From NCBI GenBank assembly GCA_030432565.1, contig JAUIGV010000012.1, positions 62,001 to 126,000 on the forward strand: 64,000 bases of DNA, read 5' to 3'. Shown in pieces: positions 10,305-64,000 of the stretch. The stretch comes from Verrucomicrobiia bacterium (GTDB taxonomy: Bacteria > Verrucomicrobiota > Verrucomicrobiia > Verrucomicrobiales > Akkermansiaceae). A program made the position numbers and the translations under genes. The notes beneath the pieces were generated by a model. That model did not search any database. It was not told where the DNA came from and saw only the letters and a program-made list of their open reading frames with translations. Every line of letters begins with the position of its first letter. Position 1 is the stretch's first letter.

Positions 10305-11879
10305 TTAGGGCTGAGAACTTCCAACTCGAAAAAATACGTTTATACCGTCGAGCCTGCGAGAGTTTGAAGGAATACGAAAAGTCCACCTGTCCTGGACTGC
10401 ATCTTCGACCACTGTCCAGTTGATTAGATCGTTTGAGTGGTAAAGGGTCAAATCTTCGAAGGAGGAGGTGTTTGATTCGAAGAAAAATGAATCGCCATCA
10501 AACTCAAGGTGGGGAGACCGCTCGACAGTCAAGCTGTCGAGGGTTGGACCAAACCCATTTGAAAAATGTCTAACTTTTACAGGAGTGGACAAGGGTACAC
10601 TCACGAATGGGAATCCTTCAAGAGTCGGAGCGTCACCAAGAAACTCGATTGATTGAAGGCTGAAACAAATTCCGAAAGCTGCCAGCCCGATTCTAGAGAC
10701 TGAAGACGGAAAGACAATCGAAGAAAGTGATTGGCAACCGAGGAACGCACCCACGTCGATAGTGGTAAGCGAATCAGGGAGGGCGATAGTCGATAAACTT
10801 GAGCAAAAAGAGAATACTCTCTGGGAAAGAATGGTCAGGTTGACTGGGAGTCTGACTTGCCGGAGCTCTTGGCATTCTTCAAACGCCTTTGAACCAATCG
10901 AGGTTACTGAGTCCGGAATTTCGATTGATGTAAGACCATCACATTGCAGAAAAGCCGATTCTCCAATGGTCTCGACTTGATTGCCCAGGTCGATATTTTT
11001 TAGTTGGCTTCTCTGATAAAAGGCGAACGGTCCAATGCTTGTCACGGATTGGGGTAAGGCAAAGGTCGCTGGAGAATCTCGTGGATAAAGAACTAGGATC
11101 GATTGATCTTGTGAATAAAGGATGTCAGAGCTTACCGAAAAGGTTGAATTGTTTGGAGTGAGTTTTATCTCAGGAACGGGACTTTCAATCTCGGCAAGAT
11201 AAATGAGCGTCTCCCGGGTCATTTTCTCGGCTATAATGAAACTTTCAAAGTTGGGGCAGTCCTGAAAAATATTTGTACCAAAAGAAGCCAGTGATTCGCT
11301 AAGCTGAAAAGTCTTGAGATTGATACATTCTGCGAATGCTCTATCTCCTAATGATGAGACTGCGCGTGGTAGTATGATCTCAGTAAAACTGAGACAGGAT
11401 CGGAAGGAATCTACTCCAACTGCAGTTATCTTATCAGGGATCTCAATTTCTTTCAATTTGGAGCATCCAGTAAAGGTCTCTGATCTAATTTCACTCAGGC
11501 TTACTGATAGGTGGACCGATTCAAGGGCTGTACAGCGGGAAAAGGCCCCTCTGCCCAGCGATGTTACGCTATCGGGTATGTCGATGTTTTTGATGAGCAA
11601 GCATTGATTGAAGCAAGAATCGCCAATCGTTATGAGACTGTTGGGAAGAGTGATGCTGGTGAGCAGAGAGCATCCAGAAAAGGCTTCATTCGCGAGTGTA
11701 GCAACAGGCTTTCCCTCAATTTTTTCCGGGATTACGAGTGGTCCGCTGGCTTGATCATTACAGCTGATGATAACAATTTCTGGGCCAGAGGCATCGATGG
11801 ACAAATCGCTAAGATCTGCTGCTAACAAAAAAGTCGGGAAAATTAAGATAAAGAGAGAGAGAGAGAGAATTTTTTTCAC
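10305..11879 (-). CDS. Secreted BspA-like leucine-rich-repeat protein
   Basis: From the GTG at 11879 the protein is ~524 residues and opens with a clear signal peptide (VKKILSLSLFILIFPTFLLA); an upstream TTG would add an unlikely leader. The body holds about twelve ~23-residue LRR_5 (BspA/Treponema type) repeats of the form 'SLttItLPnSvTsIGdsAFxxC', e.g. IDIPDSVTSLGRGAFSRC and IEIPDSVTSIGSKAFEEC. Six repeats come first, then a ~65-residue linker, then six more. The last ~65 residues (LTLYHSNDLINWTVVED ... VFFRVGSSQP) are the C-terminal module seen in several other secreted proteins of this window. Members of the family bind host or extracellular proteins in other bacteria; here the ligand is unknown. 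An AG microsatellite sits in the signal-peptide codons. Confidence 0.88.
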   Translation of the reverse strand: MKKILSLSLFILIFPTFLLAADLSDLSIDASGPEIVIISCNDQASGPLVIPEKIEGKPVATLANEAFSGCSLLTSITLPNSLITIGDSCFNQCLLIKNIDIPDSVTSLGRGAFSRCTALESVHLSVSLSEIRSETFTGCSKLKEIEIPDKITAVGVDSFRSCLSFTEIILPRAVSSLGDRAFAECINLKTFQLSESLASFGTNIFQDCPNFESFIIAEKMTRETLIYLAEIESPVPEIKLTPNNSTFSVSSDILYSQDQSILVLYPRDSPATFALPQSVTSIGPFAFYQRSQLKNIDLGNQVETIGESAFLQCDGLTSIEIPDSVTSIGSKAFEECQELRQVRLPVNLTILSQRVFSFCSSLSTIALPDSLTTIDVGAFLGCQSLSSIVFPSSVSRIGLAAFGICFSLQSIEFLGDAPTLEGFPFVSVPLSTPVKVRHFSNGFGPTLDSLTVERSPHLEFDGDSFFFESNTSSFEDLTLYHSNDLINWTVVEDAVQDRWTFRIPSNSRRLDGINVFFRVGSSQP

Positions 11880-12091
11880 TAAATCGGGGTAAGTTGCCAG
11901 ATTCTCAAAAAAAAGGCCTCTTTGCAACTGTTAGAATTTTTTGAAGGGGAGCAAAGTTTTGCAAGGACGGCAGGGAAATAATGATGGCGGGATCTATCTG
12001 CGGGTTCGTCTCCTCATCAGGGCAAAATCTTCCGAAAGTAGAAGGGCTGTCTCTCTTGATTCAGAGATATAACTAACTACTAGAGGCTATC

Positions 12092-12546: not shown

Positions 12547-12624
12547 ATCACTTCACAAAAAGAGTAAGTGTCAAAGCATTGCAGTGAGGCGGGTTTCCGT
12601 TGCCAAGTGATCAATTGTACATCG

Positions 12625-12659: not shown

Positions 12660-12685
12660 GCGTCGCCTGAATGATATAGGGGGCT

Positions 12686-14344
12686 TTATGGAAGCACCTT
12701 GAAGATCACGGTGCTTCCACTCACTTCATTGGTCACGACAAGGAGAGCTTCGCCGCTAGGGCTGTCTGAGGCATCAATGAAGACAAGGCTCTCTGGGCCG
12801 AGGTCGTCGTCGATGGTGCTGTTTCCCTCTACATTAGCCCCAAGGCGGGTATTGATGTAAGTCTCAAAAGTTGCATTCGCAGGGTCCGAGACATCGTAGA
12901 CCATGATCCCGCCGATTCTCTCGAGTGTGATGAAGGCATACGGCGTGTTGTTGAAATCGGCTACGATGACCCCTTCGGGCTCCGGGCCTTTGTCGTCACT
13001 TCTCTTGTCAGGGTCAGGCTCGTCATTACTCGCGTTAAAGGTGTCGAACTGAAGTCCCGCCGTGAGGGATTCAAAGTCAGATCCGCTATCGAAAACGAGA
13101 TCGCCCGTTGAAGACCAGATAGAGAATGAGCGCGTCCCATAGGTCACGACCTTCTCAAGGATCTTGTTTCCGTCTTTGTTGGTTCCCACGATGGTGGGCT
13201 CAGGTGGTGCGATCGTGGTTTTGAGGCGTCCCAGCATTTTCTCATTCTTGACCAAGCCTTTTCCTCCGGCGAATGCGAATCCTTCTTCAGCAAGTTCGTC
13301 TGCTCTGATTTCCTCACTGAAGTTGTCGTAGTCGCGGGAGTCTCCTTCGTTGGCGGTCACCACAAAGGTTTCTCCGTTGACCTGATAGCTGGCAATTGCG
13401 TCGGGCTGAAACATTCCCTGAACTTTGTGCTTTCTGATTTTGGCGATGAAGTTGTCTTTGTCTGAAGGATCGAGTTCGTTTCCGGAAACAAAGTGATCCT
13501 TCGTTCCAAGAGCGAAGATTCCATCGACGGTAGCGGTGTCGAGATCAACAACGGCTACCGCATTGTTTTCTTGGAGGGTGATAAAAGCGTAAGCTCCGTC
13601 AGGGCTGATGGCCGCAAATTCCGGCTCCAGATCTTGAGAGACATTAGTGGGAGAGATTGAGTAAATGGGTTTTCCTTCATCATCCACATTGCCGGTGTCG
13701 GTATAGATCTGTCCGAAGATTCGAACTCCGGCAGCTTCGAGGTCTGCCTCCAAGGCATTGAAGGCCTGGAAGTTTGCGGTGGCAACCGAGGCAACCGCTG
13801 CTCCTCCTGAAATATCGATGATGCTTACGGATCCTTCGGGGTCGATGGTATTTAAATCGTTTGGTTCTCCCTCGTTGCTGGTGACGAGTAGAGAGCCGTC
13901 AGGACTGGCGGTGATGGCGTCCGGGAGGGCTCCAACTTCGACATGGGGAGCCAAAGAGTTTCCGTCTGCATCGAAGAACGCGACGAAACCATTATCGGTC
14001 TTGGGATTGGCGACCAGGGAAACTGCAAGAATGCCATTGGTGAAAACCAAACTTGATGGGCCTGAGATCGTCTCGTCGGCCAGAGGAATGGAGAATAAGA
14101 GTGTGGGATTGGCTGGGTCGGCAATATCGAGGACATCGATCGACGCCGTAGCAGCGTTGGTAATAAAAAGACGCTGGGAAACGGGATCATAGGTCGGAAT
14201 CTCCGCAGCGCTTTCGTCATAGACTTCGGGGTCGCTTTGTCCATATCGGCCCAGCGGTTCCAGCTCGAGAGCTGCGGTGTTTGAGATCGCGCAGAGAGCC
14301 CCGGTGAGGCAAGTGCATGTTGTTTTATACAGATGATGTTTCAT
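12686..14344 (-). CDS. Choice-of-anchor I family secreted beta-propeller protein
   Basis: About 552 residues from the ATG at 14344, with a signal peptide (MKHHLYKTTCTCLTGALCAI). The body reads as a beta-propeller: ETISGPSSLVFTNGILAVSL, LLVTSNEGEPNDLNTIDPEG, YAFITLQENNAVAVVDLDTA, FVVTANEGDSRDYDNFSEE, YAFITLERIGGIMVYDVSDP, and ending SLVFIDASDSPSGEALLVVT then NEVSGSTVIFKV. These are hallmarks of the choice-of-anchor I family, in which the same propeller carries different C-terminal anchors; here no extra anchor is visible. Relatives are exported and some are fused to phosphoesterase domains, but this protein has only the propeller and its activity is unknown. It is a single-gene unit with its own terminator. 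Confidence 0.85.
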   Translation of the reverse strand: MKHHLYKTTCTCLTGALCAISNTAALELEPLGRYGQSDPEVYDESAAEIPTYDPVSQRLFITNAATASIDVLDIADPANPTLLFSIPLADETISGPSSLVFTNGILAVSLVANPKTDNGFVAFFDADGNSLAPHVEVGALPDAITASPDGSLLVTSNEGEPNDLNTIDPEGSVSIIDISGGAAVASVATANFQAFNALEADLEAAGVRIFGQIYTDTGNVDDEGKPIYSISPTNVSQDLEPEFAAISPDGAYAFITLQENNAVAVVDLDTATVDGIFALGTKDHFVSGNELDPSDKDNFIAKIRKHKVQGMFQPDAIASYQVNGETFVVTANEGDSRDYDNFSEEIRADELAEEGFAFAGGKGLVKNEKMLGRLKTTIAPPEPTIVGTNKDGNKILEKVVTYGTRSFSIWSSTGDLVFDSGSDFESLTAGLQFDTFNASNDEPDPDKRSDDKGPEPEGVIVADFNNTPYAFITLERIGGIMVYDVSDPANATFETYINTRLGANVEGNSTIDDDLGPESLVFIDASDSPSGEALLVVTNEVSGSTVIFKVLP

Positions 14345-14590
14345 GAGTTTGTTTCTAGTGGGCAACAACAAGTGGGATTCAAGATGCCTTCTTGTTTTTG
14401 CGAGGCCATTGATGAACTGAAATCAAAAGGCCACTAAACAGACTTAGGTGAAATATCTGTGACTCAGTTACGACCTTGTCACCGACTATGATCTAGTTAT
14501 GAATGACAAGTGAAAAAACTGCGATATTGGACAGGAGATAGTGAAAACGATGAGTGACTTTTAGGAATGTGTCCGATAGAGGATTTGTCT

Positions 14591-15235: not shown

Positions 15236-15253
15236 GAGGGAATCCTACTTCGC

Positions 15254-15392: not shown

Positions 15393-15423
15393 TAGCCGTC
15401 TCAGCTCAGTTCAGCTAGATCAT

Positions 15424-16036: not shown

Positions 16037-16990
16037 ATGAGAAAATCATTTGTTTTCAGTAGTTTTCTTCTCGGGACCACCCTCTTGGGCACTGTGATCA
16101 AGCCTGCTGGGGTCACTTCAACAGTGGCCGGTGATGCCGGGTCCGCCGTGGATTATCTCCTCGACGACAATCCGGGGCAGGTGGCTCCGGGCCTTCAGAA
16201 TGGCCTGGGGGAAGAGGTCACCCTGGAAACCGGTGATTCCCTGGAGAAGGCTCTCGCCACCTTCCATTTTCGTGACGGCGTCGGACATCAGGAGTCATGG
16301 ACCCGCAGTACTCCGGCAGGCAATCCCATTTTTGTCTTCGATCTCACCGGTGGTGGTAATACGGCCATTGGGTCCATCGTCCTCTGGCAGTATGGGAATA
16401 ACGGCGGACCGGGAGAAGGGAATGGAGGTAATGCGACCCGTGAATTCTCCCTGATTTTCCATGGGGAAGAGGAAGGGGATGACTTTGATTTCAATACAGA
16501 GGACGTGGATTTTACCGGAACCATGGACCCGATTTTGAGTGATGTGACTCTCCCAGTCGGAGAATCTCCCGGGAATTATGCCCAACCGTTTTACTTCGGT
16601 TCACAGTCGACCGTTCGCTATGTGGCCCTCCGCATCGACAGTAATTATCTCCCCCCCGCGGATCCGCAGATCACGGCAGGAGGTGATCGCTTTGGACTGG
16701 GCGAGGTGCGCTTTGCTACTGAGCCATCGATCCCGTCCGATATCCCGCTCCGGATTACCAGTTTCTCAATTACCCGGGACACCGACCCTGAGGAAATCAC
16801 GATTGTCTGGGACTCTGTTCCGGATAGCCAATACACTCTCTCCTATGCGACTGATCTAACAGACTTTGAAGCCAACACGGTTGCTGAGGGGATTGAGTCG
16901 ACGAATGAAAGCACTTCTCTCACCTTCCCCAATCCGGCTCCAGATGAGGCACGCCTTTTCTTTCGGGTCGCTCATACTCCGGGAGGTTGA
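16037..16990 (+). CDS. Secreted discoidin-like protein with shared C-terminal module
   Basis: 317 residues. A signal peptide (MRKSFVFSSFLLGTTLLGTV) is followed by a ~200-residue beta domain that resembles F5/8 type C (discoidin-like) carbohydrate-binding folds: SAVDYLLDDNPGQVAPGLQN, VFDLTGGGNTAIGSIVLWQY, TREFSLIFHGEE, VRYVALRIDSNYL, RFGLGEVRFA. The last ~75 residues (ITIVWDSVPDSQYTLSYATD, then LTDFE ... RLFFRVAHTPGG) are the 'StDL' C-terminal module shared with other secreted proteins here. It starts ~100 bp after repeat copy 2. Ligand and role are unknown. Confidence 0.8.
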   Translation: MRKSFVFSSFLLGTTLLGTVIKPAGVTSTVAGDAGSAVDYLLDDNPGQVAPGLQNGLGEEVTLETGDSLEKALATFHFRDGVGHQESWTRSTPAGNPIFVFDLTGGGNTAIGSIVLWQYGNNGGPGEGNGGNATREFSLIFHGEEEGDDFDFNTEDVDFTGTMDPILSDVTLPVGESPGNYAQPFYFGSQSTVRYVALRIDSNYLPPADPQITAGGDRFGLGEVRFATEPSIPSDIPLRITSFSITRDTDPEEITIVWDSVPDSQYTLSYATDLTDFEANTVAEGIESTNESTSLTFPNPAPDEARLFFRVAHTPGG

Positions 16991-22163: not shown

Positions 22164-24110
22164 TCATCTTTGAGAATCCAGGATTTGAGGGTTGGCTCCT
22201 CCGTGAAGACGCACCACCCGAAACCATTGATAGGCGCTGTTTGCGAAGCGGTTATTGACCTGATAGGAAGATAGATCTTCATCACTAATAATCTCGGGTA
22301 AATGGAGTCTGCTCCAAGTCCTTAGTGCTCCCAGTGGATCCTCTCGATTGAATTGTGGTCCTGACCCTTCGATTTGATACTTTGCACCCGGACGAGACTT
22401 CCACTCGATGATGAACCCATTGCAAATTCTTGTGTGACCGCAGAAGAACCTCCCCTGAGGTTTACGAGACTTCGTTATCTGTGGGGGCAGCGGAGATCCG
22501 AAAAGTTCCAGTTCGCCAAGTTGAAGTCTTTGGTCTCCCAGAGTGTAGACTGAGAGAAAGCGAAAGGTGGTGTAAGCCTTTGGTTTCCGAAAGTGGATTC
22601 CGGCTTCGAAGAGAAGTGTCTGATTCCGGTTGGTCCAGATCGAGTCCAGTTGGTCATTCCACCGGAAGATCGGTTCAAAGGTTTCCCCGTCCATCGACCC
22701 GTGGATTTCCCATTCCGAGGGATCCAGCAACTTGTCTATCATTCCACTGGTGAGGGCAAAACTCCGAAGCACAAATGGCTCAGGGAAGGTGGCGGTCGCC
22801 CAGAGGTAGCGCTGGGCGTTTTCATCATACCATTGCGAATCCAAATCCGCGTTTTCGTTGTCGAAGAGGCGAAAGGCTTCCTGGGAACCCCAATCGGGTT
22901 TGTGGGAAGCGTCGAACACGGCATCAAATCCACTTCCGTCGGTTGAATCGCCGTCATTTTCGATATCTGTCAAATCCCCGCCGCCCAGACTTTCGAGGAT
23001 CCGTGGTGCGGTATGGTCCTCGGGGTTGTGGGGATCGCTGCCACTCTTCAGTTCGCCGGAGTCCAGATAACCGTCGCTGTCACTATCGGCCAAATTTGGA
23101 TTGGTGACGGTCGATCCGTTCACCTCTTCGGTATCGGAAAGGCCATCGCGATCGGTATCGCTGGAAAGGGGGCTGCTTCCGGTGTCATTGCCATCCACAA
23201 AGACCCGGGTATCACTTTCCACCCCATCGCTGAGACCGTCGCGGTCACTGTCGGGATGGTGCGGATCACATCCCAGCTCAAACTCTCCGAGGTTGTTCAA
23301 GCCGTCGCCATCCGGATCAAGGAGGGAGTCGTCGCTCTCCGGGTCAAGCTGGTGGGCCCGCTCCCAACTGTCGAGCATGCCATCGGCATCAGCATCTTCC
23401 ACCGGCACTCCGTAAAGTCTCATTCCAAGATCGGATTTCCGTTCTCCGTCTCTCATGGTCCCGTTTCGTTCTCTGAGCACGGAGCCGGGATCGAGATAGG
23501 AGCCTGCGGCCTGATAATCGAAATTGGATGAATCACTGATTCCCGGGAGCACGGCGAACAAGGGCTGTCCAGCATTGTTCCGATTGTAGGAATGGATGGA
23601 CAACCAGTAATTTTGACCAGATTGGGCAATGAAGCTGATTTCCTTGAATTCCATTTTGAAAGAATAATAGGAATGAAGACTGGGGTCCGGTGCCCAGGGC
23701 CGGTCACCGAGATGGGTCGTCTCGACCTCGGCAGCCGCCTGGCTTTCACGAAAGAGCATCTCGCCGGGACGACCGTTGTCGTCTGCATAGATTGAGATCT
23801 CAAAAGTTTCAGTCTTGGGCGTGGGTGGATTGAATTGCGGGCCGCGGGTATCAAGGTAAACACCAAGCCATCCGACGCCAGTCAGCTTTTCCGCCGTTGT
23901 CAGAGAGAAATCATCAAAGATTCTCTCATTGTTGAAGGTCGAGGTGGTGGGACCGGTGAGAGGGTAATAATTTCGTTTTTGAAAACGGATCGTGGCTTGA
24001 GGATCGGCCCGAAGGCCGGAATCAAGGAGGCCGAGCAGGGCAATACAGATTGCGAGCGAAGGCCTTCGGAACGGTTTCGCGTGAGGCCAGGGAACTGGAG
24101 TGGAATTCAT
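22164..24110 (-). CDS. Secreted thrombospondin-type-3-repeat protein
   Basis: About 648 residues from the ATG at 24110; a further ATG 12 codons upstream is possible. A basic N-region and hydrophobic core (LAICIALLGLLDSGLRA) form the signal peptide. Residues ~30-225 are a beta-sandwich with FEISIYADDNGRPGEMLF and YWLSIHSYNRNNAGQPLFAV. Residues ~230-355 carry at least four calcium-binding TSP3-type repeats (DADADGMLDSWERAHQLDPE, DPDGDGLNNLGEFELGCDPH, DSDRDGLSDGVESDT, DSDSDGYLDSGELKSGSDPH). A discoidin-like domain follows (~370-550; YTTFRFLSVYTLGDQRLQLG, ELELFG), and a C-terminal module ends AYQWFRVVRLHGGAN. It lies between a kinase gene and a sigma factor gene on the same strand, so it may be a target or sensor of that pair; this is inference. 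Confidence 0.85.
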   Translation of the reverse strand: MNSTPVPWPHAKPFRRPSLAICIALLGLLDSGLRADPQATIRFQKRNYYPLTGPTTSTFNNERIFDDFSLTTAEKLTGVGWLGVYLDTRGPQFNPPTPKTETFEISIYADDNGRPGEMLFRESQAAAEVETTHLGDRPWAPDPSLHSYYSFKMEFKEISFIAQSGQNYWLSIHSYNRNNAGQPLFAVLPGISDSSNFDYQAAGSYLDPGSVLRERNGTMRDGERKSDLGMRLYGVPVEDADADGMLDSWERAHQLDPESDDSLLDPDGDGLNNLGEFELGCDPHHPDSDRDGLSDGVESDTRVFVDGNDTGSSPLSSDTDRDGLSDTEEVNGSTVTNPNLADSDSDGYLDSGELKSGSDPHNPEDHTAPRILESLGGGDLTDIENDGDSTDGSGFDAVFDASHKPDWGSQEAFRLFDNENADLDSQWYDENAQRYLWATATFPEPFVLRSFALTSGMIDKLLDPSEWEIHGSMDGETFEPIFRWNDQLDSIWTNRNQTLLFEAGIHFRKPKAYTTFRFLSVYTLGDQRLQLGELELFGSPLPPQITKSRKPQGRFFCGHTRICNGFIIEWKSRPGAKYQIEGSGPQFNREDPLGALRTWSRLHLPEIISDEDLSSYQVNNRFANSAYQWFRVVRLHGGANPQILDSQR

Positions 24111-24229
24111 GGGATTGGATGGTTGGTTCGGATTGTGGGAAGCCACTGGTGCCTTTGATGGCGGGCTTCACTCAGTCGTGCGGAATTCCGATACCGGCCC
24201 CCTCAAAAAAACGTCAAAAAATAACGGAC

Positions 24230-28300: not shown

Positions 28301-30610
28301 ACCGATCAGATTTCCTACTCCGGAGGAACCGTTCCCGCCGGGCAAACCTGCACCGTCACCGTCGGAGTGACCAGCAGCGAAGGAGGCGACTTTTTAAACA
28401 CCACCGAAGAACTCACCAGCTCGCTTGGCAACAGCGGCACGGCAAGTGATTCACTGGAAGTGCAAGCCGCGGTTTCGATTGCTCTCAACGTTACGGGATC
28501 CACCCCAACCGTGGTCGCCGGATCGGGCACGGCAAACCTAGGCTATGTCGTTGTTGTCACCAACAACGGACCTTCCACCGCCACCAATCTCGTCATCGAT
28601 TTCGCCGAGACCCTTCCTCCCGGAGTGATCGCCGGAAATGCCCTCGCTGGCGTGGGCACCTTCGAGCAATCAACCTGGTCCATTCCCGCCCTGGCAACCG
28701 GAGGACAGGCCACTCTCGGAATCACTTACACCGTCCCGCAAAACACCCGGCCCGGCACCGACTCGATTGTAGGCACCGCCACTTTGACTTCGGTCGATCA
28801 ATTCAATCTCAACCAAGCCAACAACTCCGCCACTGCTCCCACATCGGTAAGCAACGTCTTCGACATCGCACTCACCAAAATGGAATCGATCGATCCTGTC
28901 TTGGCAGATTCCGGACCGGGCAACCTGGTTTACACCGTGACCGCTTCCAACAGCGGACCTTCCAATGCCTCCAACGTCAGCATCCGTGAAGTACTCAACC
29001 TGCCGGCTGGCGTCACCGTGCAATCAATCGTCCCGGGCAATGGAACATTCACTCCGGAAAACGATCCCAACGGGCTCTGGACCCTAAACCTGCCCGTGGG
29101 AGAAACCGAAACCCTGACCATCACTCTAGACGTCGATGCCAATGCGCCGGACAACGGAACGATTGGCACGACCACCAGTCTCGAGTCGGCTTCAGGAACC
29201 GACAGCAACAGCACCAACAACTCGGTCACCGAAACCACCACCATCATTGCCGGAGTCGATTTGATCGTCACCAGAACCGGGTCCGATGATCCCGTGGTTG
29301 CCGGTTCCGGGAGTGGCAATCTGAGCTACCTCATCGAAGTCACCAACGAGGGACCGCTCGCTGCCAGCGGACTTGAGCTGGCCGATGTTCTCACGTTTGG
29401 AGACGGCATCGTCATCGATTCTGTGACTCCAAGCATTGGCACTTTTGAAAATCAAACCTGGACAGTGGGCGACCTCGCGGTCGGCGCCACCGAATCCCTC
29501 GAGGTCATCGTGACCGTAGGTCCATCGGCCCAAGCCGCCTCACCCGGATTCACCAGCGTCTCCTCGGTCAGCGCCGTGGACCAGGCCCAGATTAACACCG
29601 GCGACGAATCGGTCACCGCCAACCGGGACATCACCCGCGAAGTCGATCTAACCATCTCGGTCGAAAGCTCACGCGACCCGGTCCTTGCCGGATTCAACCT
29701 TCCTCAAAATCTCTTCCACACCCTGACTGTCACCAACCAGGGACCCAGTGATGCTTCCGGAGTCAGCTTGAACGTCAGTGAAGTCCTGCCCGAAGGTGCG
29801 ACCGTCGACTCCATCAGCCCGGCAAACGGAACCACATTTGCCGACTCGGTTTGGTCAGTGGGCGATCTCAGCGTTGGGAATTCCACCTCCATCATCTACT
29901 ACTTCCGGGTTCCCGGATCAGTGACCGGTGGTGTCGATCTCATCTCGAACCAAGCCTCGGTCAACACAACCAACGAACCACTCCTCAACCCCGACGATGA
30001 CATCGGCTCCATTGCGACCGACATCGTCAGCCCCGCGAGCACCAACATCGCAGGCGGCGACATCGTGCTCGATTTCCAAACCGGCCTCTTCAAGCAGACC
30101 GTCACCATCACCAACAACAACCCCGGAGCGCTTCCTGCCTTCCGGGTGCTGGTCGGAGGTCTTCCCGCAGGAGTCACCGTCGCCAACGCGCAGGGGGAAA
30201 TCCTTGGCAACTCCTTCCTTCTGTTCAATCAGCCACTTGCGAGCGGCGAGAATATCGAGCTTACCGTCGAATACCTTCAGGCCGATGCCTCGGGAGGATT
30301 TGAGCCCACCTTCGAAATCGAGCTACTCGACGCAGTCGAAAATCAAAACGCCGGGGAAGGAGTCGAAGTGGACCGCTGCGAGGTGCTGGCCAATGGCGAT
30401 GTCCTGATCGAATTCCCATCTGAAATCGGCGCAATCTACACCGTGCAATACAGCCAGAACGGTGAGGCCTGGGCCAACGTCGTTCCGGACATCACGGCCG
30501 GAGGAACGCGATTGCAATGGATCGATAATGGCCCGCCCAAAACCGCCAGCCATCCGTCCGGTGAAAAACTCCGCCTCTACCGGGTCATCAAAAGAGATGC
30601 CGACAAATAA
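25310..30610 (+). CDS. Giant secreted DUF11-type repeat protein (putative adhesin)
   Basis: 1766 residues. Residues 1-32 are the signal peptide (VAPLLLSAAVRAQA cleavage region). About five ~125-residue Ig-like repeats follow (approx. 34-150, 155-285, 290-815 interrupted, 803-928, 930-1054); each has a Cys after '...P' and a second Cys in 'AGQ.C.vtV', suggesting one disulfide per repeat. The third is split by ~375 foreign residues (~354-727) that carry two jelly-roll-like domains. Four DUF11 repeats occupy ~1055-1578, marked by '.VTNNGPS.A.NV' (e.g. VVVTNNGPSTATNLVIDFAE). The C-terminus (GAIYTVQYSQNGEAWANVVP ... LYRVIKRD) is the shared C-terminal module. Such proteins form long rods on the cell surface or are secreted; adhesion or matrix building is inferred. 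It is co-oriented with an outer-membrane barrel gene 18 bp downstream. Confidence 0.9.
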   Translation: MNVRPSPLPRLFKSVLFKFLVAPLLLSAAVRAQAPSFSMNLSPEAVGVGSCAELTFEVQNNSGNSVNDLAFTVNLPAGVALSNPANPVSDCGGIFNAVDGGSTITLSGGSVGANATCSASVGVTLLAEGPFNIISGNLTSDAGNSGTASVSIGIPTTGPALGFTKSFSESPVRLGGQTTLTYTIQNQSQTAAEGISFSDDLSPGIVVASQPNIINNCPGATLTAIAGSQTINFSGAGLAAGQSCVITVDVVGLVAGRNISISGDISSSFPGGNPVPSGRACGALEVIPSENLADISFSKSFVEDSVDPGGTTDLVFTITNNSQTETFNDITFSDDLNAMLPGAVATNLPEEGGFLVDANFDGSGSSVLDSSWDYLDQLQNENGRNDGYPLDGSGNEWNSVAFNPVTSTIGPWVAGNAPFQAGDVDAFPAGTPAVLGGIDAAANGENLVTTYLFRKEFTLDASQAGISDWLLDYVFDDGAIVYINGIEVFRSAGMPAGPVTTTTLSALGDEVNRTSSQVDLSGVLVQGSNTIAVELHQTTLDSSDAGFLLDLLPVSSSPTAGFSYSDDTFEGTNDAGAANGTLNPNGGFSGGGIDVTVGGKNFIAGFFNPPSSGGWARTFTVNEAGSIEVSLRYRLLLDETYEGNEFGQALLEIDGVRYGNSANNSLAQLNGGAGVDQDSGWQVYSTTIFLAAGEHTILMGAYNNQSNSGTEVTQVFFDDIQIGTPLRPAAVCGPNSQIVGSDVLTFTGGQLAPGQSCSFRVGVSVPPSAPFGDYENKTSLISTVVGGRSLVGFPATDTLNVVPVPPTFTSSFSPAEIPANGTSTLTFVIDNRSSQVAATDVTFSTSLPDGMVIAEEPGASSTCGGSITALSGFNSFNFSGGTIAAGQICTVTVNVTGQTSGELITTSGPLVSSLGDSGTNTATLTVSPPPTFSMSFAPDEINAGQVSTLTFVIDNGASQLPATNLNLTHELPDGLIIANPSNASTTCQGGTLIAISGTDQISYSGGTVPAGQTCTVTVGVTSSEGGDFLNTTEELTSSLGNSGTASDSLEVQAAVSIALNVTGSTPTVVAGSGTANLGYVVVVTNNGPSTATNLVIDFAETLPPGVIAGNALAGVGTFEQSTWSIPALATGGQATLGITYTVPQNTRPGTDSIVGTATLTSVDQFNLNQANNSATAPTSVSNVFDIALTKMESIDPVLADSGPGNLVYTVTASNSGPSNASNVSIREVLNLPAGVTVQSIVPGNGTFTPENDPNGLWTLNLPVGETETLTITLDVDANAPDNGTIGTTTSLESASGTDSNSTNNSVTETTTIIAGVDLIVTRTGSDDPVVAGSGSGNLSYLIEVTNEGPLAASGLELADVLTFGDGIVIDSVTPSIGTFENQTWTVGDLAVGATESLEVIVTVGPSAQAASPGFTSVSSVSAVDQAQINTGDESVTANRDITREVDLTISVESSRDPVLAGFNLPQNLFHTLTVTNQGPSDASGVSLNVSEVLPEGATVDSISPANGTTFADSVWSVGDLSVGNSTSIIYYFRVPGSVTGGVDLISNQASVNTTNEPLLNPDDDIGSIATDIVSPASTNIAGGDIVLDFQTGLFKQTVTITNNNPGALPAFRVLVGGLPAGVTVANAQGEILGNSFLLFNQPLASGENIELTVEYLQADASGGFEPTFEIELLDAVENQNAGEGVEVDRCEVLANGDVLIEFPSEIGAIYTVQYSQNGEAWANVVPDITAGGTRLQWIDNGPPKTASHPSGEKLRLYRVIKRDADK

Positions 30611-45000: not shown

Positions 45001-47599
45001 GGGCGACACCCCCGGCGCAAAAATCACAGTGCCCTACAAGGATGACCCCCAACCCAATTTCGCCTACTTCATTTACGATGGCACCCCCGACTGGAGCGGA
45101 TCCGTCCGCGGCAGCGACGCTCCGGTGAACCACCCCGGTTCCCTAATGTCGAGCATTGCGACCTACTTCCTGCTCAGCAAAAACTCGTATGTCGATGACT
45201 CCCAATTCGGAGGCTATCGCGGATCGAATTACCTCTGGCCCGGCACCATGGTTTACGAGGGGAAGGTTTACGACCACATCAAATATCGCCCTCGTGGTGG
45301 CGTGCACCGCTTCCAGTATGGCAAAAATTTCTGGAAGTTTGACTTCGACCGCGGCCGCCGTTTTGAAGCACGGGATCGCTACGGTGAGAAATACTCCGAA
45401 GCGTGGGACAAACTCAATTTCTCATCCATCGTTCAACAAGTGAACTTCAACCACCGGGGCGAGCAGGGCTTGTTCGAGGGAGTTGGCTTCCGCCTCTTCC
45501 AGCTGAGTGGCGTCGAGGCCTGCCACACCCACTACGCCCAGTTCTATGTCATCGACGAAGCCAGCCCCACCGGAGCCAACCAATATGAGAGCGACTACTA
45601 CGGCCTCTATCTCGCCATCGAACAACTGAACGGCCAGTTCCTCGACGAACATGACCTGCCCGATGGCAACCTCTACAAAATCGAGGGCCACCGTGGCGAC
45701 TCCAACAACCAGGGACCCACCCAGGTCGACAACGGCAGCGATGTTTCCAGCTTCATCAGCGCTTATCGTAACGGAACACCCACCGCCCAATGGTGGGAGA
45801 ACAACCTCGATATCGAAAAGTATCTCAGCTACCGCACCATCGTCGAAGGAATCCACCATTACGACATCGCCGCAGGCAAAAATTACTTCTACTACCACAA
45901 CCCCGAGACCTCCAGGTTTGAAGTTCACCCCTGGGATCTCGATCTCACTTGGGCCAATAACATGTATGGCTCCGGTAACCATGATTTCAAAACAAAGGTC
46001 GCGCAGAACCCGGCCTTCAACACCCGCTATCAAAATCGCGTCCGCGAAATCATGGACCTCCTCTACAACCCCGATGAAGGCCACAAACTCATCGATGAAA
46101 TGGTTCGTGACGTCTGGACCCCGGGAGCACCATCGCTGGTCGGCGCCGACCGACGACAGTGGGACAACAATCCCCGGATCAATCACCCCGATCGCTACTA
46201 TGACGTCGCTTCCGGCAATGATTTCGGAGGTATGATTCAGATTCTCAAGAACTACATCGTCTCTCGCGGAAACTGGATGGAGTCGAATCTTCTCACCTCG
46301 GAAAACGTCATTCCCGAAACTCCCGTGATCACCTATTCCGGTGCCCCCGGACACCCCGCCAACGGCCTGCAATTCACCTCGAGCAACTACAATTCAAACA
46401 CGGCCTTCGCAGCCATGGAGTGGCGAATCTCCGAAATCTACGACCCCACCACTTCCAACTATATCGCCGGAGAACCTTACCTATATGAGATTGAAAATCC
46501 CACCACCTCCGGTGAGCTCACCTCATTTAATCCGGACTATCTCTTCCCCGCGATTTCCGCGAGACCCGGTCAAACCTATCGCGCCCGTGTCCGCCACCGG
46601 GACTCTGAAGGACGCTGGAGCCACTGGTCCGCACCCGCCGAGTTTGTGGTCTCGACTCCCGACGTCACGCCTTTCGCCAACGATCTCCGCATCACCGAGG
46701 TTCACTACCACCCCGCCCCGGCCAGCTCCGCGGAACAAGCGATGGGCTGGACCGATTCCGATTTCGAATACCTCGAGATCCAGAACATCGGAGCGGCTGC
46801 CCTTGACCTGACCGATGTCCGCTTCACCAAGGGAGTCGACTTTGACTTCCCGCCGGGAACCATGATTCAGCCCGCTGCCTTTCTCCTCATCGTAAAAAAC
46901 CAGGCGGCCTTCGATTTCCGATACGGAGTCGGGCTTCCCGTGATTGGCGAATGGGATCCCAATGACCAATTGAGCAACGGAGGAGAGAACATCAAACTCT
47001 CCCTCGGTGCCGGCACCTCCATCATCGAATTCACCTATGATGACGATGCTCCCTGGCCGACTTCTCCCGACGGAGGTGGCCCCAGCCTCACTCTCATCCT
47101 TCCGACCGAAACCCTGCCCGCAGATCATTCGGACCCCTTGGCCTGGCGGGCCAGCCAACAGGCCGGAGGCACTCCTGGTGCGGCCGGACCCGGTACCTCG
47201 AACTTTGATTCGTGGGCACAGAGTCACGGCCTCGAAGCCGGCACCTCCATGACCGCCGACAATGACAAGGATGGTATAAATAACCTTCTCGAGTATGCCC
47301 TGGACTCCAATCCAACACTCGCTTCAAACCACGACCTTCCCACTGGAGCAACGGAACTGATCGAGGTTGACGGTGTGACTGATCGTTATCTAACCCTGAC
47401 CTTCAGACGCAATCTCGCCGCCTCTGAGCTCACCTTCAGCGTCGAGCTTTCGGACGATCTTGTCGGCTGGGATAACAACTCCGCCGTCCCGGTTTCTTCG
47501 ACTGATAACGGCGACGGAACCGCAACCGAGGTTTGGCGCGCCCCGCTTCCTTCGACCACCGACTCCCGGCAGTTTGTCCGCCTCCGCGTGGTCTACTGA
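42026..47599 (+). CDS. Giant secreted CotH-kinase protein with lamin-tail and Fn3-like domains
   Basis: 1857 residues. Signal peptide ~1-27; a discoidin-like domain to ~215; three Fn3-like repeats (~219-521) with FYRAYGTNDQGEEWASS-type repeats; a lamin-tail domain ~523-658 (VVINEIHYDEDTKTVRAEFI); a jelly-roll domain ~688-851 (YDDAYAIYVNGVEVARH, TNVIAVEIHQSSQNSSDISF); an Ig-like region ~873-1010; a CotH-type kinase domain ~1022-1425 whose metal-binding motif reads HPWDLDLTW (~1301); an Fn3-like region; a second lamin-tail domain ~1550-1680 (ITEVHYHPAP); a calcium-binding DNDKDGINNLLEYALDSNP motif and the shared C-terminal module. CotH of Bacillus is an atypical kinase that phosphorylates spore-coat proteins; this exported version may phosphorylate extracellular protein, but activity is unproven. 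Confidence 0.92.
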   Translation: MLLFPRAFSPASTALLLALTGLQPASADLVIPSSIKAFHQGDSLSGNGSTLQVINGSGMFKANPNDPSTWTVSSTAWPDDWQGFSTPSGNTTWAVLDLGSPTPNLAQMFLWNVQEGAPGGQTNRGMNNFNIFYATSPAVTPPATSGNVTAYDFASGGWTRMSGSFSLARGTGNGDSGQSFDVSEAAGARYLGFQILSNHGGNRVGFAEIAFTTEVPTGAPSVTNLAPSSITSSGATIRGNLTDAGTTPPTVSLYWGPSDGGVSAASWANTENLGTQTNPGEFSSILTGLQPNSTYFYRAYGTNDQGEEWASSSETFTTATAPPAVQNVTASDIIGTSATIGGTVTSTGGEIPELVIHYGDNDAGTGTWDAQLDLGLQAGFGSGSISNLNPGTTYYFRAAATNSTGTSWASSTASFSTTAVNPPTITNSPASGINGTFATLNGEVIDAGGDPPAVTIYYGTVDGESTPANWELSVPGGTQSGSFSRLVSNLQPTTTYYFRAFAQNAAGSNWASTSRTFTTPVFTPPSVVINEIHYDEDTKTVRAEFIELFNPSNNPIDLSGYYFSSGIDFEFPAGTILAAGGYLVVAEDPATMLSRFGYPGALGPFANGSSLRNSGERITLRNPAGTTVDEVDYQLGFPWPTVGDDIGTLLASPSIELINPLLDNDLGGSWRASGFPAATSNSGAGGDSPVNYIAGNATWKYLDDGSDQGTAWRATEFDDSGWASGPAELGYGDSDEATLVNSGPAGGRYATTYFRASTDIPDPSDFVNFTISITYDDAYAIYVNGVEVARHAGLTNNAPYDEYANNTVGDNANDTVTVPTNAFVSGTNVIAVEIHQSSQNSSDISFALSLTGETSGGTPGGSFAPTPGAANRSYATAVPPQIRQVDHLPNQPTSGQPVVVTAKVTDPDGVDSVTLQYQLVNPGDYFSRYLKFNDNGTTNEDPRYEDPAEWTEVVMTDDGTGGDALAFDSIFTVTLPGTLQTNRRLIRYRISAGDTPGAKITVPYKDDPQPNFAYFIYDGTPDWSGSVRGSDAPVNHPGSLMSSIATYFLLSKNSYVDDSQFGGYRGSNYLWPGTMVYEGKVYDHIKYRPRGGVHRFQYGKNFWKFDFDRGRRFEARDRYGEKYSEAWDKLNFSSIVQQVNFNHRGEQGLFEGVGFRLFQLSGVEACHTHYAQFYVIDEASPTGANQYESDYYGLYLAIEQLNGQFLDEHDLPDGNLYKIEGHRGDSNNQGPTQVDNGSDVSSFISAYRNGTPTAQWWENNLDIEKYLSYRTIVEGIHHYDIAAGKNYFYYHNPETSRFEVHPWDLDLTWANNMYGSGNHDFKTKVAQNPAFNTRYQNRVREIMDLLYNPDEGHKLIDEMVRDVWTPGAPSLVGADRRQWDNNPRINHPDRYYDVASGNDFGGMIQILKNYIVSRGNWMESNLLTSENVIPETPVITYSGAPGHPANGLQFTSSNYNSNTAFAAMEWRISEIYDPTTSNYIAGEPYLYEIENPTTSGELTSFNPDYLFPAISARPGQTYRARVRHRDSEGRWSHWSAPAEFVVSTPDVTPFANDLRITEVHYHPAPASSAEQAMGWTDSDFEYLEIQNIGAAALDLTDVRFTKGVDFDFPPGTMIQPAAFLLIVKNQAAFDFRYGVGLPVIGEWDPNDQLSNGGENIKLSLGAGTSIIEFTYDDDAPWPTSPDGGGPSLTLILPTETLPADHSDPLAWRASQQAGGTPGAAGPGTSNFDSWAQSHGLEAGTSMTADNDKDGINNLLEYALDSNPTLASNHDLPTGATELIEVDGVTDRYLTLTFRRNLAASELTFSVELSDDLVGWDNNSAVPVSSTDNGDGTATEVWRAPLPSTTDSRQFVRLRVVY

Positions 47600-49231: not shown

Positions 49232-50167
49232 TTAGTCCTCGGCTTCGACTCTCACAAAGAGGCGATCGGAGGCAGAAATGCCCGCTTCGGCCAAATCAAA
49301 GGTCAGTGTGATCGTATCGGCTTCGTCAGGATTCTCGTCCTCGGCAGCAGTCAAACCATCTCCAATATCTGAATCAAAATTAGTCAGATCGGTTGAGTAT
49401 TTGACTATGTACGACGCGGCTCCGGTATTACGCCAGGTCAGAGTCAAGCTCCCTCCCTCTTGATCATAAACAAGGCCGGTGATGGCAAGATCCACAACGG
49501 GGCCGGAACCAGTTCCGTTGACCGCGGAAACAGCCAGTCGATCATTGAGGGTGAATTCAATCGATTGAATCGGCTTCGACTGATCTTCTTCTGCGAGGTC
49601 AAAATTGATCTCCCTTGGAAAAACACCCGGCCCAAAGTAGCTGTTCCAGCCTCCGGCACCACGGCGGGCAATTGCGATTTTATCAGTGGCATTGTAATCC
49701 CTCGATCCCTGCCAATCATTGATCGTAAAAATCAACAGACTGGTGGAAGCATCGGTAAAAGTCACCGTTGCCTGAAAATTATCAGCACTATTCCCTCCAA
49801 TCCCAAAAATAAGAAACTGGAGATCTGAATAGGCGGCGGGACTATCCAGGGTGAAGATGTCTCCACTCACAAGAATATTGCTTTGATCATAAGGCTGCAG
49901 CAAAAACCCAGTCCCAAAATCGGTCACAAACGTCCGGTCGGCACTGTCAGGAACCGCAACAGTCGCAGTGGTCGTGTCGATCGAAGGAGACCCTTCTTCT
50001 GCAAAAACCCAGCGAGCCAAACCCGCGTAGTCCGTGACATCATCCGGAGTGAGCCCTTCCTTCTCGGCAATGGCATCCGCACTAAATCCGGTGCCGCTGA
50101 TGGGGTCGGCCTGCAACCCACATGAGACAGCGACGAACAAGGACGTCATCATGATTTTATTTTTCAT
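49232..50167 (-). CDS. Secreted protein, paralog of the neighbouring PEP-CTERM protein, with Fn3-like C-terminal module
   Basis: 311 residues. The signal peptide (MKNKIMMTSLFVAVSCGLQA) is followed by a ~210-residue beta domain: SGTGFSADAIAEKEGL, YAGLARWVFAEEGSPS, GDIFTLDSPAAYSDLQFLIF, GIGGNSADNFQATVTFTDAS, NDWQGSRDYNATDKIAIARR, REINFDLAEEDQSKPIQSIE. The same domain makes up the next gene upstream. The C-terminal ~85 residues (GSLTLTWRNTGAASYIVKYS, TDLTNF ... DRLFVRVEAED) are the shared 'StDL' C-terminal module instead of the PEP-CTERM tail of the neighbour. It is cleanly separated from the neighbour by ~80 bp on the same strand. Function is unknown. Confidence 0.87.
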   Translation of the reverse strand: MKNKIMMTSLFVAVSCGLQADPISGTGFSADAIAEKEGLTPDDVTDYAGLARWVFAEEGSPSIDTTTATVAVPDSADRTFVTDFGTGFLLQPYDQSNILVSGDIFTLDSPAAYSDLQFLIFGIGGNSADNFQATVTFTDASTSLLIFTINDWQGSRDYNATDKIAIARRGAGGWNSYFGPGVFPREINFDLAEEDQSKPIQSIEFTLNDRLAVSAVNGTGSGPVVDLAITGLVYDQEGGSLTLTWRNTGAASYIVKYSTDLTNFDSDIGDGLTAAEDENPDEADTITLTFDLAEAGISASDRLFVRVEAED

Positions 50168-50245: not shown

Positions 50246-50977
50246 TTAAAGAACCTCTTGGGCGCGACGGCGACGAATCAGAGCAAGGCCACCGAGCCCC
50301 AGAAGAACAAGTGACGATGGCTCTGGCACTGCAAGAGGAGTTCCGCTCACAGCGGACAGACCAAGACGATCACCCAGGGCGAAATCAATTGTCTCGAGTA
50401 TTTTTCCTTGATCAGCAAGATCCAGGTCGAACGTCAACTCTCTCGTCCAAAGAGAGATATTTTGAGTTCCACCGCGTCTCACATACGCTGTTTTATCGGC
50501 GAAGGCATTGTAATCCCGACTTCCCTGCCAATCCGCAACCGAGAACTGAAGATCAGTGGTCGTAGCATCTGAAAAGTTAAGTGTGGCCACAAAGTTATTG
50601 GCACTATTTCCGCCAATACCGGTGATGAAAAACTGGATATCCGTAAATGATCCTGCGCTATCAAGCGTGAAGGTGTCACCGTTCACAAGGGTGTTGGGAC
50701 CCGTATAGGATGGAATCTGGAAAGTGGTTCCATTTTGGGTCGTAACCAATCCGCCCGCCGGGAGGGCAACTCCGGGTCCCTGATTGGGGGCTCCATCCTC
50801 GGCCAATACCCACCTCGCAAATCCAGCATAGGAAGCTCCATCGTCAACACTGGCGGCACCGGCCTCAACAATTGCGTCCACCGAATAACCAGTCCCGCTA
50901 ATGACAGCAGCATTGGCTGGATTTGAAACAAGGGTGAGGGCAACGAGAGGAGCCAACTTTAGGGTGTGTTTTTTCAT
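50246..50977 (-). CDS. PEP-CTERM protein, paralog of the following gene
   Basis: About 243 residues from the ATG at 50977, which starts the signal peptide (MKKHTLKLAPLVALTLVSNP); five upstream codons (MILKL) are a less likely extension. The mature domain (SGTGYSVDAIVEAG, YAGFARWVLAEDGAPN, FTLDSAGSFTDIQFFITGIG, GNSANNFVATLNFSDATTTD, ADWQGSRDYNAFADKTAYVR) is clearly homologous to the next gene. The C-terminus is a PEP-CTERM signal: VPEPSSLVLLGLGGLALIRR and RR, so the protein is sorted by an exosortase-type system. The two genes are therefore a tandem duplication that received different C-terminal targeting modules. Confidence 0.9.
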   Translation of the reverse strand: MKKHTLKLAPLVALTLVSNPANAAVISGTGYSVDAIVEAGAASVDDGASYAGFARWVLAEDGAPNQGPGVALPAGGLVTTQNGTTFQIPSYTGPNTLVNGDTFTLDSAGSFTDIQFFITGIGGNSANNFVATLNFSDATTTDLQFSVADWQGSRDYNAFADKTAYVRRGGTQNISLWTRELTFDLDLADQGKILETIDFALGDRLGLSAVSGTPLAVPEPSSLVLLGLGGLALIRRRRAQEVL

Positions 50978-50992
50978 CAATTTGAGGATCAA

Positions 50993-61875: not shown

Positions 61876-62045
61876 GAGGCCCTGTTAGTTTATCCCGGGA
61901 CGTGAGACAAGTGTGCGACGCGACCATCGCTACCCCAATTCGGGCAAGCTATTTTTGCAATCAAACCATGGACGGGTTCATTCGACCGAATGACATTGCT
62001 CCGTTCTCTTGACGGCTCCCTTTCAATTCAATAGCATGCCCGACC

Positions 62046-64000
62046 ATGCACACTGTAAAATCATGCGGTATCCTTGCCCTATCCGCCTCTTTCGCCTTCG
62101 GCCAAGGCCAAACCCTTAAAGACGAACTGGTGGCCTACTGGCCTCTCGACGAAATTCAAGGGAACAAGACCCCCGACCTTGCCAATGGTCAGGATTTTCT
62201 TTTGCAAAGTGTCGGTGCGACCGACCAAATTCCCGGCAAATTTGGAATGGCCTTCAATTTCAAGAAAGCCAACAAGGCGCACCTCGTTCGGACTCATGAT
62301 CCGGCCGACGACCTGCCGGCCATGAAGAACGAATCCTTCACCCTTGCCTATTGGGTACGGGCCAATGCCGCCGGACAATCCGATCTCCGCTTCTTCTCGG
62401 AGGGAAGTAATCTTCCAAGTGACGGAACCCCGCTCTTCACCATGGGGACCGTGCCCGGCGGCTCAAACAATTCAGTGGACGTCTTCATTCGGGATAAGAA
62501 CGGGTTTCCACTTTTCAACCACACTCCCACTGGAGCCACGCCGCTTGATGGACTCGACTGGCACCACGTTGCTTTCGTGCAAACCGCACAGCCTGATGGC
62601 TCGGCCACCAGACAGGTCTACATCGACGGAGTGCTTGATTCCATTGCGATTCCAAATAAGCCCGCCGGCTACACCCACAACATGAATACCACCTCCATCG
62701 CGGCGGTCGTTCGCACCAGTGACGTCGCTCATGTTGATGGCGACATCGACGAGGTTGTAATTTGGAAACGCCCCCTGACCCAGGCGGAGCTCGATGATCT
62801 CATCACCAACGGCATGCCGGACCTTGATGAACAACAAGAAGAACTTCAAATCAACAGCTTTGCCCCGGAATTTCGCAAAGTCGCCTCAGGTGATGAAGTC
62901 ACCATCACTTGGGACGCAACCAAGGACGCCACGCTCGAGATCGACCAAGGCATCGGTGATGTCACCGCAACGAGCGAATTTGGAGTCGGCAGCACCAGGG
63001 TTGTCATTACGGAAGAAACCACCTTCACCCTAACCGCTTCGCGGGACGGCGAGGCTTCGGTCACTCAAACGCTCACCGTCTCTCCGATTACGGGCGTTGC
63101 CAGCGGGTGGAACTGGATTGACGACTTCGATGGACTCACTCCCGGCGCGCTCTCCAGCCAAGGTTCATGGCTGACAGCGGAAGGCTCCTGGGAGGTCACC
63201 ACCATTGGCAACACCCAGGCCATCACCGCAACCGCCGGAACCGACCTCACCGGTCGGATCACCCAAACACACGCCCTGCGGGAAGACAGCACCCGCACCT
63301 TGTTTTTCCGCTTCTGCTACAGCAGCGCAGAAGCAGATTTTCCCGTCCTCGCCAAGGTCGGATTTGGCGAGAAGGCGATTCGTTTTGCTGTCGACTACGT
63401 CAACAACATCGGAACCTACGTCACCTTCAGGCGTGATATTGGCGGCCCCCTCCGCATGGAAGCAATCGATGGAATCGGTGGCCCGGTCACCGACTCGGGA
63501 ATCACCTTCGAGCCCGACACCTCCTACGATGTCTGGATTGACGTTAACAACGTTCCCTTGGACCAAACCGACACCTTCTCGGTCCACGTCGCTCCGACCG
63601 GAGGCACCCGTCAAACCGTCTTTGACAACTTCTCATCCGATCGCGAACCGCAGGAAGTCTTCCTCCTTGGATTCCCGCGCCCCATCATCGACACCATATT
63701 TGTCACCACAACGAACGTCAACGATCTCGCAAGCCAGGCCATTGCCTTCGATGATTTTTACATCTCGGATGCCGAAAGCAATCCCGCGACCGCTCCCGTG
63801 GCTCCGGGCTTTGGCAAGATCCTTCCCGCAGATCTCGTCATCAAGAACATGACCTTCGATCCGGTCACCCAGCAACTCAGCCTCACTTGGGATTCCCAAG
63901 CGAATACCACCTATCGAATCGTCGCTTCCACCGATCTCTCGGCCGATAGCTGGTCCGAGATCCAGGACAACGTTGCCTCACAAGGAGCATCCACCACCGA
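62046..64000 (+). CDS. Secreted LamG-domain protein (C-terminus beyond window)
   Basis: The frame is open from the ATG at 62046 to the window end (~651 residues so far). The N-terminus MHTVKSCGILALSASFAFGQ is a signal peptide. Residues ~30-245 are a LamG/concanavalin-like jelly roll: LVAYWPLDEIQGNKTPDLAN, GMAFNFKKANKAHLVRTHDP, LDGLDWHHVAFVQTAQPDGS, RQVYIDGVLDSIAIPNKPAG, DGDIDEVVIWKRPLTQAELD. A ~90-residue Ig-like region (~265-350) and a second jelly roll (~360-585) follow. The visible end (DPVTQQLSLTWDSQANTTYR, IVASTDLSADSWSEI) already shows the start of the shared C-terminal module, so the true end is likely ~60-80 residues past the window. Carbohydrate binding is likely but inferred. Confidence 0.9.
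   Translation, partial: MHTVKSCGILALSASFAFGQGQTLKDELVAYWPLDEIQGNKTPDLANGQDFLLQSVGATDQIPGKFGMAFNFKKANKAHLVRTHDPADDLPAMKNESFTLAYWVRANAAGQSDLRFFSEGSNLPSDGTPLFTMGTVPGGSNNSVDVFIRDKNGFPLFNHTPTGATPLDGLDWHHVAFVQTAQPDGSATRQVYIDGVLDSIAIPNKPAGYTHNMNTTSIAAVVRTSDVAHVDGDIDEVVIWKRPLTQAELDDLITNGMPDLDEQQEELQINSFAPEFRKVASGDEVTITWDATKDATLEIDQGIGDVTATSEFGVGSTRVVITEETTFTLTASRDGEASVTQTLTVSPITGVASGWNWIDDFDGLTPGALSSQGSWLTAEGSWEVTTIGNTQAITATAGTDLTGRITQTHALREDSTRTLFFRFCYSSAEADFPVLAKVGFGEKAIRFAVDYVNNIGTYVTFRRDIGGPLRMEAIDGIGGPVTDSGITFEPDTSYDVWIDVNNVPLDQTDTFSVHVAPTGGTRQTVFDNFSSDREPQEVFLLGFPRPIIDTIFVTTTNVNDLASQAIAFDDFYISDAESNPATAPVAPGFGKILPADLVIKNMTFDPVTQQLSLTWDSQANTTYRIVASTDLSADSWSEIQDNVASQGASTT

Follow-up and report, generated by a model that had tools for sequence, protein, structure and literature searches.

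Seven otherwise unrelated secreted proteins encoded within one stretch of bacterial DNA appear to end in the same kind of module, and the question addressed here is what this shared ending is and what it might do. The stretch, hereafter called the window, comprises 64,000 nucleotides from a Verrucomicrobiia bacterium of the Akkermansiaceae (GenBank assembly GCA_030432565.1, contig JAUIGV010000012.1, numbered C74 here, positions 62001-126000), whose genome (G000) amounts to 5.93 Mb in 82 contigs. An initial annotation, made from the letters of the DNA, had proposed a C-terminal sorting module comparable to type IX secretion tails and distinct from PEP-CTERM. The module, hereafter called the beta-tail, belongs to a large family in this genome, and neighbouring genes with homologous bodies were found in which one protein ends in a beta-tail and the other in PEP-CTERM. 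Our reading, which is tentative, is that the beta-tail is a C-terminal address domain, an alternative to the PEP-CTERM/exosortase anchor, on exported and mostly non-enzymatic proteins, with the type II secretion system (T2SS) as the likeliest exit. Unless other genomes are named, all counts below refer to G000, and window genes and proteins are named by the first window position of the gene.

With the single tail of the discoidin-like protein 16037 as query, 42 matches were obtained at E<=10, and these include the tails of 49232 and of the LamG protein 62046. A profile of 30 tails (A2), whose rows do not include the tails of the CotH protein 42026 or the DUF11 protein 25310, retrieved both of these (E values in Table 1). 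The tail of the TSP3-repeat protein 22164 was a weak match to A2 and was recognized by a broad profile of 86 rows (A6). The tail of the LRR protein 10305 was not reached by A2 at E<=1 and scored E 5.2, not significant, with A6. The rows of A6 include the other five window tails, so that its scores for those five are circular. Judged by sequence comparison, the shared module proposed for seven window proteins is therefore backed at E<0.01 for five (16037, 25310, 42026, 49232 and 62046), weakly for 22164, and by motif for 10305. Across the genome, where the best 150 of 197 A2 candidates were scored, at least 115 matches had E<=1 and 85 had E<=0.01, the latter in 85 separate frames. The tails share a conserved core (LTW-S-Y-V-S-DL-W...FFRV) and are acidic (median net charge -7). 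An FxRV-type motif is followed by 2-10 residues in 72 of 76 tails, and the other 4 have no readable motif.

Placement next to the stop codon is shared by most members. A stop codon could be seen for 84 of the matches at E<=0.01, and in 77 of these the module ends 0-10 residues upstream of it; the exceptions have 19, 24, 34, 63, 406 or 444 residues after the module, plus one broken fragment. At loci sampled across the phylum the module lies no more than 12 residues from the stop in 22 of 29. A hydrophobic N-terminal stretch was found in 77 of 82 tail proteins against 128 of 187 neighbouring open reading frames (Fisher p 2e-6), under a signal-peptide score permissive enough for those 128 to pass. 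In this genome, then, the profile is not mostly internal and most of its carriers have export-type rather than cytosolic N-termini, as the initial annotation had expected. Within the window, the exported enzymes and a barrel protein (32122, 33912, 40096, 59622, 61192 and 30629; roles judged by eye) end without a beta-tail. The remaining large non-enzymatic proteins carry the beta-tail or its weak form, with the exception of the choice-of-anchor I protein 12686.

Exchange of the beta-tail with PEP-CTERM

One pair of window genes differs in its tails while sharing its bodies: gene 50246, which encodes a PEP-CTERM protein, ends 78 bp upstream of 49232, which encodes a beta-tail protein, and of the twin pairs described below this is the one that lies in the window. 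For a comparison across the genome, the PEP-CTERM set was drawn from 76 TIGR02595 matches, of which 73 exceeded the cut-off. These and one sub-cut-off protein (14.0 bits, ending IPEPAS...RRRR, added as the neighbour of a tail gene) gave 74, of which 68 were long and complete enough. On the other side, 79 of 85 beta-tail proteins were compared, those with more than 40 residues after the module or a body of fewer than 60 residues having been dropped. All proteins were trimmed of their tails before the bodies were compared.

Homologous bodies (33-90% identity) were found in 26 of the 39 mixed pairs lying within 7 kb, compared with 79 of the 5333 remaining pairs (p 9e-37). The neighbour was the best PEP-CTERM body match for 23 of 37 beta-tail proteins at E<1e-20, where 2000 shufflings gave 0.45 on average and 4 at most. 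Without the sub-cut-off protein these figures become 25 of 38 neighbouring pairs, 79 of 5255 others and 22 of 36 best matches. Homologous neighbours with like tails were few (beta-beta 2 of 11, PEP-PEP 0 of 2). About a third of the tail genes have a PEP-CTERM relative nearby. The twins lie on the same strand in 23 of 26 pairs; 15 of these 23 are spaced by 20-144 bp (start codons chosen by us), and in 12 of the 15 the PEP-CTERM gene comes first. No protein among the compared 79 and 68 carried both tails, and TIGR02595 was absent among the matches of the 30 tails in A2. By both measures the beta-tail is distinct from the PEP-CTERM signal, and the initial annotation was right to keep the two apart. 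When the regions preceding tail and PEP-CTERM genes were searched for a common sigma-54 promoter, the best matches were about as good as in shuffled sequence.

The twins differ in architecture as well as in their ends. In 13 of 26 pairs the beta-tail twin contains its partner's body two or three times, and the stretches between the repeats look Ig-like or TSP3-like by eye. Among 25 twin PEP-CTERM proteins, Laminin_G_3 was matched in 6 and a legume-lectin model in one. Interchangeable C-terminal anchoring, for which "choice-of-anchor" is the term in use, is characterized by homologous bodies with different tails, a pattern seen here in 26 neighbour pairs and in 5 of 22 loci elsewhere. The swap suggests that a body may be sent to either of two places, on the cell or outside it. 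A role in destination or attachment is the single account that fits best, because the beta-tail replaces, on shared bodies and at the same end, a signal known to act in sorting, and the two never occur together in the compared proteins. These natural twins, with one body and two tails, are ready-made pairs for comparing the roles of PEP-CTERM and the beta-tail.

It seems unlikely that the module is a stabilising cap with neither a sorting nor a binding role, inherited by duplication as surface genes multiplied. Duplication is indeed active, 27 beta-tail proteins having a distant beta-tail gene as their best body match at E<1e-30. A cap would fit poorly, however, with a tail core that is kept on diverse bodies and with homologous neighbours that are mixed in 26 cases and same-tailed in 2. 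A pure spacer is disfavoured, since 26 of the 28 neighbour pairs with homologous bodies combine a beta-tail with PEP-CTERM.

Predicted fold and relation to known systems

The tails are not covered by the model libraries searched. No Pfam model matched more than 5 of the 30 tails, and the matches were weak (best E 0.00087, one tail). No NCBIfam model matched more than one (best E 0.016). Fibronectin type III (FN3) models gave no significant match: the best was fn3_SORL1 (E 0.011, with 5 of 30 tails at E<=1), and PF00041 was absent. Against PDB sequences, no A2 match passed the threshold; the best was an Fn3-like protein (E 0.087), and hexosaminidases came next. A match of the LRR tail to GH43 (E 0.0043) was below the cut-off and was taken as chance.

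Structures were predicted with AlphaFold2 for the tail of 16037 (with 22 other sequences; pTM 0.77) and for that of 49232, with pLDDT values as in Table 1. Six strands were predicted in the former, at residues 10-16, 23-29, 35-41, 51-57, 62-68 and 78-84 of 87, and five in the latter. Foldseek found no match in the PDB at E<=0.001 for either model, and the VIA structural rows were all below Z 8. Many of the structural neighbours are FN3 domains in the mid-range (Z 6-7). Among them are Pel3/PelI (Z 6.3-6.8; no sequence similarity demonstrated), pectate lyases in which the Fn3 domain precedes the catalytic domain. The alignment of FN3 chains such as TENCON (93 residues) stops at residue 76-78. 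The predicted strand order is that of FN3, A-B-C-C'-E-F, but nothing follows F, and the seven-strand A-B-C-C'-E-F-G arrangement is incomplete. In these models, then, the tail looks like an FN3 domain from which the last strand is missing.

Such a shape could belong to an ordinary extracellular FN3-like domain that binds, for example, a matrix polysaccharide or a cell-surface protein, holding the non-PEP proteins in the matrix and taking no part in outer-membrane crossing. We regard this as a serious alternative, somewhat less probable than an address domain. The predicted fold, the lectin-like bodies of twins matching Laminin_G_3, the acidity of the tails and the existence of internal copies are all consistent with binding. 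A near-strict C-terminal position, with 85 matches in 85 separate frames, would be unusual for such a domain, and PEP-CTERM occupies the same place in the twins. It has also to be considered whether a strand from another protein completes the tail by donor-strand docking or polymerization, so that PEP-CTERM and multi-body twins form one surface fibre or layer. The early end of the TENCON alignments would suit this idea, as would models that end 1 and 3 residues past the last strand and the few residues beyond the FxRV-type motif. Because the 16037 tail alone is predicted to fold with good confidence, we consider it improbable.

The address-domain reading places the beta-tail among C-terminal sorting tails, which are a known kind. 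The C-terminal domain (CTD) of type IX secretion cargo is likewise a folded C-terminal beta-sandwich found on varied proteins. The PEP-CTERM/exosortase system (TIGR02595, PF07589; PMC1569441) is similar in being C-terminal, in many copies per genome and on diverse exported proteins. The beta-tail, by contrast, is a folded domain and lacks the Pro-Glu-Pro, helix and Arg-cluster pattern. MYXO-CTERM and GlyGly-CTERM (PMC11980579, PMC3237569), found on proteins reported to pass the outer membrane through T2SS, are C-terminal too, but they are short tripartite membrane tags rather than folded domains. Closer in predicted fold are the Fn3 domains of Pel3/PelI, whose loops act as a T2SS secretion signal; these, however, are parts of enzymes of two domains, each of which contains secretion signals (PMC7949064). 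No description of the beta-tail, or of tandem genes that swap it with PEP-CTERM, was found in the titles and abstract starts of one open literature library. Nor was a folded, unannotated FN3-like tail that alternates with PEP-CTERM in twins found in the model libraries searched. If correct, the address-domain reading would give about 80 proteins of this genome, which lack a C-terminal annotation in those libraries, a sorting or docking tail.

Distribution, secretion machinery and proposed role

The phylum Verrucomicrobiota holds many polysaccharide degraders. The 22 named loci reached by a narrow query all come from metagenome-assembled genomes of Akkermansiaceae, Verrucomicrobiales or Verrucomicrobiota. 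The broad profile, 23 of whose 86 rows came from 22 loci of such tail-bearing genomes, found a tail at E<=1e-6 in 82 of the 193 Verrucomicrobiota genomes searched, representing 54 of 108 genera; copy numbers across the phylum are lower bounds, with 28-29 candidates scored per genome. Of the 22 loci reached by the narrow query, in related metagenome-assembled genomes, 5 also hold twins (L090, L091, L093, L102 and L111). Those of L090, L091 and L093 are one orthologous pair by similarity. L111 has two adjacent twin pairs in which each beta-tail gene matches its own neighbour (72% and 68%) and not that of the other pair. Four other tail-rich genomes (G177, G140, G119 and G176) have 39-72 tails and 2-59 PEP-CTERM matches each. 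The numbers of tails with a PEP-CTERM gene within 2.5 kb, observed against expected, were 1/1.06 in G177, 2/0.7 in G140, 6/1.89 in G119 and 1/0.06 in G176, figures that rest on the best 150 of 196 tail matches; adjacency thus agrees with expectation in G177 and exceeds it in the other three, in small numbers. With 39 tails against 2 PEP-CTERM matches, G176 shows that the beta-tail can do without PEP-CTERM partners.

Exosortase (PF09721) was matched in 143 of the 193 genomes, with three matches in G000. It is present in 77 of 82 tail-positive genomes against 66 of 111 others. All 47 genomes that carry at least four tails have it, and these 47 also have a GspD-like secretin at E<1e-70, which was found in 105 of the 146 other genomes. 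Among genomes of <=3.3 Mb, four or more tails occurred in 15 of 66 with this secretin and in 0 of 40 without it (p 8.5e-4). In 17 small genomes of the same family (one genus, 2.2-3.3 Mb), presumably Akkermansia, 12 have exosortase and none has the secretin at E<1e-70.

The likeness to type IX secretion tails that the initial annotation proposed is not supported. A divergent CTD of that system would follow the same general logic, a C-terminal beta-sandwich on varied cargo, but no NCBIfam type IX sorting model matched any of the 7 window tail proteins or the 30 tails. SprA_N of the type IX translocon was found in 0 of 193 genomes, in a search that had no positive control and leaves absence unproven. 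We judge such an origin very improbable.

What may be proposed instead is an address (sorting or docking) domain of about 75-85 residues, an FN3-like sandwich ending after its sixth strand. Its carriers would be exported, largely non-enzymatic and often lectin-like proteins of the surface or matrix. The PEP-CTERM twin would be processed by exosortase and retained on the cell surface. The beta-tail twin, in half of the cases with a repeated body domain, would leave to the matrix or to another surface receptor, and might serve as a bridging partner for its single-bodied, anchored twin. The part of the initial annotation that saw a common, sorting-type tail at the C-terminus of varied exported proteins is supported by the tail's position, the N-termini of its carriers, the replacement of PEP-CTERM and the lack of double-tailed proteins among those compared; that the tail itself directs sorting, and where its carriers finally reside, we infer from these. 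T2SS would be the likeliest outer-membrane exit. This route is weakly preferred, by analogy, because the Fn3 loops of Pel3/PelI are a T2SS determinant (PMC7949064) and T2SS is also reported as the path of MYXO-CTERM carriers (PMC11980579).

Several observations weigh against this proposal. FN3-like domains are usually binding or spacer domains. The module is internal in 6 of 84 matches, and 7 of 29 phylum loci have it farther than 12 residues from the stop. The twin pattern looks lineage-bound: the tail/PEP-CTERM pairs examined within 4 kb in G177 (1), G140 (2) and G176 (1) had no homologous bodies, nor had other adjacent pairs examined in G119, where one PEP-CTERM protein has a neighbour of 64.5% identity in which the tail-like module is internal. 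The tail is missing from 10 of the 17 small genomes and the other 7 carry one or two, despite exosortase in 12. The link to T2SS was judged by GspD-like secretin, which at E<=1e-10 (TIGR02517) is present in 188 of 193 genomes and at the curated cut-off in only 51 of 193. The best match in G000 (E 8.9e-72) is below that cut-off, and the threshold of E<1e-70 is our own. Co-occurrence with exosortase and with a GspD-like secretin was observed in genomes with four or more tails, but kinship and genome size confound all of these figures. A bolder and rather unlikely extension is that the folded domain, missing its last strand, marks a widespread second export or anchoring system beside exosortase in Verrucomicrobiota. 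In some lineages entire families of lectins would then be maintained as two-gene kits, with a single-headed copy anchored by PEP-CTERM and a multi-headed one whose open-edged beta-tail joins anchored copies, by strand completion, into a surface layer.

Window features and genes between the twins

Table 1 Positions of beta-tails and related features in the window.
Feature	Position	Strand	Evidence
Beta-tail of 317-aa discoidin-like protein (gene 16037-16990)	16727..16990	+	query tail; AlphaFold2 pLDDT 88.3, six strands
Beta-tail of 311-aa protein (gene 49232-50167)	49232..49516	-	E 0.0087 with single 16037 tail; AlphaFold2 pLDDT 77.6
Body of 49232	49517..50167	-	48% identity to 50246 body over 223 aligned positions, BLASTP E 3e-56
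Tandem twin of 49232 with PEP-CTERM tail (residues 222-244), no beta-tail	50246..50992	-	TIGR02595 29.3 bits (cut-off 16); body homology
Beta-tail of LamG protein (gene from 62046)	63813..64000, cut by window end	+	E 0.0090 with single 16037 tail
Beta-tail of DUF11/DUF7933 protein (gene 25310-30610)	30350..30610	+	A2 E 0.0057
Beta-tail of CotH/LTD protein (gene 42026-47599)	47333..47599	+	A2 E 0.0015
Probable divergent beta-tail of TSP3-repeat protein (gene 22164-24146)	22167..22436	-	A2 E 0.53; A6 E 0.0039, 14 aa before stop
Possible beta-tail of LRR_5 protein (gene 10305-11927)	10308..10532	-	motif only: YHSNDLINW ... FFRV

The last codon of the LamG gene lies about 60 bp outside the window, and the protein finishes ...LFFRVEVQ. 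The choice-of-anchor I protein (12686-14371; PF22494, E 2.6e-110) has no beta-tail match, and no PEP-CTERM motif was seen in it by eye. Elsewhere in the genome, a broken beta-tail remnant lies at G000:C24:32380-32529 (in locus L154), about 1.2 kb from an intact tail.

Five twin pairs (L142, L167, L185, L217 and L242), whose genes are 3.6-4.3 kb apart, hold an FG-GAP-type gene in the gap, checked with Pfam in L142 and L242 and assigned in the rest by alignment or eye. Four FG-GAP-type genes are broken at the same aligned codon by TGA: L142:5826-5828 (+), L167, L185 and L106 (minus), three of them between twin genes of this genome and one in another metagenome-assembled genome. A literature search found nothing on this site. 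The TGA lies in the context NG[FY]xTxxxxxDL-TGA-S[FV]xWR. About a dozen bases downstream of each lies a predicted stem that has GGTC inside its loop or close to it, a prediction that had no shuffled control. In one such gene, Pfam matched FG-GAP before the TGA and UnbV_ASPIC, redoxin and TPR after it. The genome encodes a selenocysteine tRNA (54.4 bits, gathering threshold 47) with anticodon TCA, and the TGA is likely to be a selenocysteine site.

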